Part shown: positions 1 to 713 of the stretch, piece after piece
Layout of the letters: the number at the start of each line of letters is the position of its first letter
Numbering within the stretch: the stretch's first letter is position 1
Assembly (NCBI GenBank): GCA_017535315.1
Contig: JAFXUD010000001.1
Coordinates: 1-34,624 of the forward strand
Length of the DNA: 34,624 bases
DNA from: Victivallales bacterium
GTDB taxonomy: Bacteria > Verrucomicrobiota > Lentisphaeria > Oligosphaerales > Oligosphaeraceae
Direction of reading: 5' to 3'
Position numbers and translations under genes: made by a program
The notes under the pieces: generated by a model
The model's database searches: none
Told to the model about the DNA's origin: nothing
Seen by the model: only the letters and a program-made list of their open reading frames with translations

Positions 1-320
1 AGGTCTGCTAGGGTAGGTCTGCTAGGGTAGGTCTGCTAGGGTAGGTCTGCTAGGGTAGGTCTGCTAGGGTAGGTCTGCTAGGGTAGGTCTGCTAGGGTAG
101 GTCTGCTAGGGTAGGTCTGCTAGGGTAGGTCTGCTAGGGCTCTAGGATAAGTCTTCTAGGATAAGTCTTCTAGGATAAGTCTTCTAGGATAAGTCTTCTA
201 GGATAAGTCTTCTAGGATAAGTCTTCTAGGATAAGTCTGCTAAGTCTTCTAAGTCTGCTAGGGGGGTGGTCTGCTAGGATAGGTCTTCTAGGGTGAAGTC
301 TGCTAGGTAGCTTTCTAGGC
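1..320. repeat. Tandem array of a 14-bp CTAG-containing repeat, left of tRNA-Leu
   Basis: Positions 1-140 are ten head-to-tail copies of AGGTCTGCTAGGGT, the last with one changed end base. From 147 to 230 come six exact copies of a variant, ATAAGTCTTCTAGG. From 231 to 320 the array decays into irregular copies of AAGTCTGCTAGG and AAGTCTTCTAGG. All copies share a GTCT(G/T)CTAGG core. The array runs off the left edge, so its true length is unknown. There are no spacers, so it is not CRISPR. The near identity of copies within each block suggests recent expansion by slippage or unequal crossing over. No open reading frame of note lies in it, and 321-419 is only AT-rich DNA leading to the tRNA. 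Confidence 0.97.
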
Positions 321-632
321 AACTAAACTATATAAATCCCAAAATAAAAGCATAACCCGCTTTATTTTTTTTTCATTTGCCTTATATTATGATTAATTCA
401 AAAAAGGCAACTGCACTATGCGAGAGTGGCGGAATTGGCAGACGCGCTGGATTTAGGTTCCAGTACCGCAAGGTGTACGGGTTCAAGTCCCGTCTCTCGT
501 ACCACTTTGGACTAGGGGAAAACAAACAAAAAGCTGCCTTGCGCTGATGGATTTGAGCGTTAATAATATGGGAAGTTTATAGTTAGTTGCCTAGAAAGTA
601 CCCTAGCAGACTTAGAAGACTTAGCAGACTTA
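232..632. repeat. Long interrupted inverted repeat enclosing tRNA-Leu
   Basis: Positions 232-263 and 601-632 are perfect reverse complements over 32 nt. A second inner pair, 311-326 and 583-598, is perfect over 16 nt and extends with one bulge to about 332 and 578. The tRNA-Leu gene lies in the roughly 250-nt interior. The inner pair (containing TTTCTAGGCAACTAA) is distinct from the tandem unit, so the inversion covers more than repeat against repeat. The arms could in principle form a cruciform, or could be ends of a duplicated or inverted segment. No transposase is present. Confidence 0.9.
420..504 (+). tRNA. tRNA-Leu, anticodon TAG, with encoded CCA
   Basis: The 85-nt cloverleaf has acceptor arms GCGAGAG (420-426) and CTCTCGT with discriminator A and an encoded CCA at 502-504. 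The anticodon stem is CTGGA/TCCAG around loop TTTAGGT, giving anticodon TAG, which reads CUA and probably other CUN codons. A long variable arm of leucine type follows, with the short stem ACC-GCAA-GGT. The T arm is ACGGG-TTCAAGT-CCCGT. It stands alone with no other tRNA within the window and is enclosed by inverted repeat arrays. The upstream DNA is AT-rich with a T tract at 361-373; no clear -35/-10 pair was identified. Confidence 0.97.
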
Positions 633-713
633 CCCCAGAAGACCTAGCGGACTTACCCCAGAAGACCTGGCAGACTTACCCTAGAGGACTTACCCTTGAG
701 GACTTACCCCAGA
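578..713. repeat. Inverted, degenerate copy of the CTAG repeat array, right of tRNA-Leu
   Basis: On the plus strand this reads as variants of ACCCTAGCAGACTT and CCCAGAAGACCT, the reverse complement of the family at 1-320. There are about eight units, more diverged than the left ones and irregularly spaced. The end next to the tRNA (583-598) and the segment 601-632 match the left side perfectly in reverse complement. The flanks 505-577 and 714-802 hold no gene and no other recognised element. The array ends about 90 nt before the promoter of the efflux operon. Confidence 0.9.

Follow-up and report, generated by a model that had tools for sequence, protein, structure and literature searches.

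Two inverted MITE copies with expanded CTAG repeat arrays probably flank a tRNA-Leu gene in a Victivallales genome

The first 740 bases of the DNA analysed here very likely consist of two inverted copies of a MITE that flank a tRNA-Leu gene and whose interior arrays of CTAG-centred repeats were later expanded. The window, i.e., the whole stretch of 34,624 nucleotides that was analysed, starts at position 1 of contig C14 of a 4.9-Mb Victivallales genome comprising 96 contigs (the source genome).

Direct reading of the sequence places a left CTAG-centred array at 1-307 (+ strand) and an inverted array at 601-713 (- strand), with an ordinary tRNA-Leu(UAG) gene, its CCA encoded, at 420-504 (+ strand) between them (ARAGORN and Rfam; the tRNA is the sole Rfam match). 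The left array is composed of ten copies of AGGTCTGCTAGGGT (1-139), six copies of AAGTCTTCTAGGAT (149-232), a higher-order core, GTCTGCTAAGTCTTCTAAGTCTGCTAGG, at 235-262 (+ strand) and variant units up to position 307; it is cut at the contig start by an assembly break, and its unit count covers the assembled part. The core consists of three units with 9-bp spacing and characterises the element in three species of the genus. The right array holds nine unit matches, including a triplet core at 602-629. Segment 232-263 is the exact reverse complement of 601-632, as is 311-326 of 583-598, and the longest exact inverted match of 32 nt, compared with at most 12 nt in 200 shuffles, is not due to chance. 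The arrays, the tRNA and both perfect inverted segments had been placed in a preliminary description of this DNA exactly where they are found here. Past the 16-nt pair, the inverted homology continues, interrupted by indels, as far as about 340/570. In the remainder of the window (714-34,624) CTAG is rare, i.e., about 4-fold under-represented (30 observed vs 130 expected).

Alignment of element copies by their triplet core made fixed outer sequences visible in the simple copies, with GGGAATTATGTACTTGAGTTTCC on one side and GCAAGCAACTAAARTATATAGTTCCC on the other. These sequences are mutual inverted repeats, and the element TIRs are about 23 bp long (GGGAATTATATACTTKAGTTKCC). Simple copies of 133-143 bp, with ends of the type GGGAATTATRTACTTGAGTTTCC...GGCAACTAAAGTATATAATTCCC, were found in three species, and their 73-bp interior is a compact series of five or six CTAG-bearing units. 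The unit is 14 bp long (RGTCTKCTAGGNTA), and spacings of 9 and 16 bp also occur. In these short copies, the CTAG array is the interior of a TIR-bounded element.

In the window, the left copy is represented by its 3' part (1-340, + strand), i.e., units followed by a 3' TIR at 318-340, which reads GGGATTTATATAGTTTAGTTGCC on the - strand and has a weighted score of 0.91 against the family end; the 5' end falls outside C14, before its first base, and may be on contig C13. The right copy (570-740, - strand) is inverted relative to the left and has both ends in degenerate form: a 3' TIR at 570-591 (GGGAAGTTTATAGTTAGTTGCC, + strand) with a one-base indel relative to the family, and a 5' TIR at 718-740 (GGAATTATACTTGAGTTATCAGG on the - strand) with a short deletion. 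This copy can be aligned end to end with complete copies. The locus therefore reads, in order, 5' end (off the contig), array, 3' end, tRNA, 3' end, array, 5' end, and the inner 16-nt pair overlaps the 3' ends of both copies. Contig C13 starts (L035 1-214) with ten identical units, and a 5' end is also present there; its reverse complement might supply the left part that the left copy lacks, with C39 as an alternative join. Directly after the right element, at 873-6624, genes for an outer membrane efflux protein, an HlyD-type and an AcrB-type protein are found (an RND efflux operon); in the congener G001, another type of MITE, also with these ends, lies in front of the homologue of the first efflux gene (L173).

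The preliminary description had stated that no transposase or spacers explain the arrays, which is correct for the window locus, but the units are dispersed rather than restricted to it. The CTAG unit is found at about 27 sites in the source genome (a hand count among the matches listed). Two-unit matches number at least 216 in the source genome, 23 in G001 and 1 in a second congener, G002, and the 28-nt triplet core has 36, 19 and 2 matches, respectively, with 0 for a reversed control pattern. Among the genomes searched, the units occur only in this genus, with 0 matches in 38 more distant genomes. Phages, plasmids and viral contigs gave no match. A CRISPR array was rejected because the units run head-to-tail without spacers. 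An end scoring at least 0.78 was recognised in the expected orientation at approximately 15 of about 50 array stretches, and many long arrays in the source genome have no ends or remnants only. Five stretches have an end in the opposite orientation, which we attribute to neighbouring elements.

At one of these sites (C50:12974-14429; L040 1974-3429), two inverted arrays surround a gene for a four-helix-bundle protein resembling a 23S-rRNA IVP (PF05635, E 3.4e-6, below cut-off). Such a gene was rejected as a driver of the arrays, because the second of the two in the source genome lies away from arrays. C91 has, in reverse complement, an end that overlaps the right end of C50 (both contain CGAGCACTAGGTCTGC...), and judging from this overlap the two contigs probably join through an array. 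Intergenic G-rich tandem repeats of 7/14 bp (GCTGGACGTGGGAC, AGTGGTTAGTGGCT) at 8001-8067 and 32955-33012 of the window lack element ends and form a different repeat class. A long GC-rich tandem repeat (AARPARAARPAR...), in which several frames are open, is found in G001 about 600 bp from a family end (C468, L157 2083-2820).

The TIRs define a family that is larger than its CTAG-bearing members. At least 213 family ends were found in the source genome (controls 0 or 1), most of which bound a GC-rich sister element of 241 bp without CTAG. Family ends occur in four genera of the bacterial family (g1, g3, g10 and g11), with one weak match in g8. Paired ends enclose elements of 72-500 bp, and several unrelated interiors occur within these same ends. 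One 241-bp element is nested within another end pair of the same family (C25:21515-21926; L176 1112-1523). For 70 closed pairs, the identity between the two flanks peaks at exactly 8 bp (0.732, compared with a shuffled mean of 0.398 and a shuffled maximum of 0.45) and falls at 9 bp, and 15 of the 70 pairs have perfect 8-bp duplications where 0.5 would be expected; this statistic is driven mainly by the CTAG-free 241-bp type. The targets are A/T-rich. The exact 8-bp peak together with the perfect 8-mers identifies MITE-type transposons that duplicate A/T-rich 8-bp targets. Consistent with this assignment, the TIRs are shared and dispersed, the elements are small (133-143 bp, and 241 bp for the sister) and they carry no transposase gene. 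The fixed-length duplication is evident when the whole TIR family is considered and weak for the CTAG-type copies of this genus, whose flanks match at 1-6 of 8 positions. At the window copies no clear 8-bp duplication is visible (the right copy is flanked by AATAATAT / TTTTGTTT, and the outer end of the left copy is missing), which suggests that these copies are old, or rearranged.

The 8-bp A/T-rich duplications and the GGG ends resemble those of the IS1595 family (compared with PMC12561309). No IS1595 (PF12762) or ISL3 transposase was found in the source genome. In genome G041, an IS1595 transposase gene (PF12762, E 4.9e-44) begins 76 bp inside a matching end, which is present on one side only; the right end was not found. 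Because of this missing end and the lack of a PF12762 match in the source genome, we infer the helper indirectly: an IS1595-type transposase presumably acts in trans. An ISL3 helper was rejected, as the single such gene, in G012 (another genus), has no matching ends.

The number of units per array ranges from about 5 to 35, and between two recognised ends from 5 to 15 unit matches (L050, L138, L140, L128). Adjacent units are more similar (0.823) than distant units of the same array (0.792) or units of different arrays (0.764), and the window itself contains runs of ten and then six identical units. The identical runs and the more similar neighbours fit repeated local amplification, for which slippage is the usual mechanism. 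The earlier suggestion of an expanding satellite captured the tandem part, which is an expanding minisatellite, but missed the TIR-bounded transposable element that encloses it. Other repeats are found within the same ends: in G012, one element enters a CTAG-bearing tandem repeat (CTAGCCCCT) at a contig end and copies of 72 and 90 bp carry 2 and 4 CTAGs; contig C33 of the source genome has a 103-bp element with TCTAGAATA; and element interiors in g10 contain GGGACATCC-like repeats. From these data, a sequence of events may be proposed in which a non-autonomous transposon, mobilised by an IS1595-type transposase in trans, would have inserted at each side of the tRNA-Leu gene, presumably in two independent events, with 8-bp duplication of the A/T-rich target. 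Single 14-bp units would then have multiplied in place inside the interior, probably by replication slippage, to yield satellite-like arrays, and the element would have no function for the tRNA.

The preliminary description had also proposed a tRNA-borne recombination site and a structure for processing the tRNA transcript. The former is not sustained, because only 2 of the 47 tRNAs of the source genome have an array within 200 bp (at 24 array loci examined for tRNAs, a tRNA-Lys on C94 was the one additional find), and the remaining array sites are elsewhere. For the latter the analysis likewise gives no support: the left copy sits upstream of both the tRNA gene and its probable promoter, and the predicted folding of the RNA of 505-745 does not exceed that of shuffled sequences (z -0.63). 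A structured RNA was rejected on this value for the right element together with that for the core (z -0.86); the strong folding of the DNA strand at 200-745 (z -11.7) is a restatement of the inverted repeat. An attachment site of an integrative element was also rejected, as a direct repeat with the tRNA 3' end was not found; no repeats that include the tRNA were found within 1-1000, and the window elements end 65-80 bp away. Repeats without tRNA association, the outcome named in the preliminary description as speaking against its reading, are largely what is observed for the arrays, while the wider family yields a weak proximity signal: for 8 of the 47 tRNAs, an array or the end of a family element lies no more than 200 bp away. 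This signal could mean that the family targets tRNA loci in the manner of integrative elements, which we regard as very improbable. Long-arm (Leu/Ser/Tyr) tRNAs are near an element or array in 6 of 10 cases, compared with 2 of 37 for the others (Fisher p 0.0005), a split noticed post hoc and including two tRNAs that share one element; in G001, tRNA-Leu(UAG) likewise resides between two elements, of other types. However, the elements stop 60-140 bp short of the tRNA and are never inside it, most of the more than 100 elements sit away from tRNAs, and a preference for A/T-rich intergenic targets could yield equal proximity. Furthermore, 25 random 20-kb control pieces contained 3 ends vs about 13 expected, i.e., the elements are clustered and offer no fair baseline. 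We treat the tRNA proximity of the family as a lead only. No element was seen near tRNA-Leu(UAG) in G003. Beside the tRNA-Leu of G002 (C420, L184 300-390), tandem repeats of GGGACTCAT, arranged as an inverted pair, form a further short-repeat palindrome at this tRNA.

Alternatives to two independent insertions and later growth of the arrays concern the origin of the pair and the nature of the repeats. The two elements could have moved as a composite unit with the tRNA as cargo, or have arisen by one local inverted duplication, given that the window copies have the 32-nt core and the 3' end subtype in common and that a join of C13 to C14 would make TTTCATTT and TTTTGTTT, which are identical at 6 of 8 positions, the outer flanks. 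We consider this scenario quite unlikely, because copies elsewhere share the core subtype (C50, C85, C91) or the 3' end (C30), which makes a local duplication unnecessary; T-rich flanks easily match by chance, the C13-C14 join is a candidate, and relatives without these copies still have tRNA-Leu(UAG). An assembly artefact, in which chimeric joins would have created the arrays, might be suspected from the position of this and many other arrays at contig ends but is extremely unlikely: arrays are also found inside the long contigs C7, C9, C67 and C78, and the congeners G001 and G002, which were assembled separately, have them too, such that doubt is limited to the copy number. The contigs break at arrays because these are real repeats.

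The arrays might instead serve the host in a protein-binding role, as also raised in the preliminary description, or in a regulatory or chromosome-organising one, while being carried on or derived from MITEs. The constant length of the 73-bp, six-unit interior at several loci and in two congeners would be consistent with such a role, as would the depletion of CTAG elsewhere while further CTAG-bearing interiors are found inside the same ends. This role appears unlikely to us, since no constant gene neighbourhood, orientation or association with tRNAs is seen for the arrays, the unit counts vary over the range given above, the core as RNA is not predicted to fold better than shuffled sequences, and low divergence among recent copies would equally explain the constant interior. 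A broader proposal, which we deem speculative and unlikely, is that of a family-wide bacterial transposon lineage with fixed ends, in which short tandem repeats take the place of the interior again and again and expand into satellites; selection, e.g., for binding of a protein of the host or a partner of the transposase that aids the persistence of copies, would in that case account for the recurrence of the CTAG core.

The closest known counterpart of the proposed MITE with an expanded interior is BrickBuilt of Porphyromonas gingivalis (Bacteroidota), a minisatellite inside a MITE with 19 intergenic copies and no transposase, for whose ends promoters have been reported (PMC4596501). Both have short TIRs (the BrickBuilt leader and tail), a spacerless tandem interior of variable number inside the element, an intergenic location and no transposase. 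In contrast to the 23-nt unit of BrickBuilt, from another phylum, the unit here is 14 bp, the GGGAATTATATAC... ends differ from the BrickBuilt TIRs, and the same ends hold unrelated interiors, including other CTAG-bearing ones in the source genome and another genus (PMC4596501). The elements were therefore not assigned to the BrickBuilt family proper, given its unit length and TIR sequence. BOX elements of Streptococcus pneumoniae, for which expression effects were reported, similarly have variable tandem inner modules between fixed ends and MITE features, but the boxA/boxB/boxC sequences and the lineage are unrelated (PMC3049150). Members of the IS1016 group of the IS1595 family, e.g., ISApl4, share the 8-bp A/T-rich duplications and the GGGG/GGG starts of the ends; ISApl4, however, is a complete IS with a transposase and a different end (GGGGCTGTACTAGA), while the present elements have none (PMC12561309). 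The foldback transposon Tetris of Drosophila virilis offers a eukaryotic analogy only, with tandem repeats of a transposon giving rise to satellite DNA (PMC4079207). A literature search yielded no publication on repeats of this kind from this bacterial group. The kind of element is already known, and this family appears to be undescribed.

Satellite birth inside transposons is known in animals and plants and has rarely been reported in bacteria. In this genus, simple forms with a 73-bp interior and 35-unit forms exist side by side, and other repeats within such ends are found in another genus; the start and growth of a bacterial minisatellite could be traced here. The arrays also explain why contigs break at these positions in such genomes, and they call for caution, as inverted arrays that flank a tRNA should not be taken for tRNA biology.
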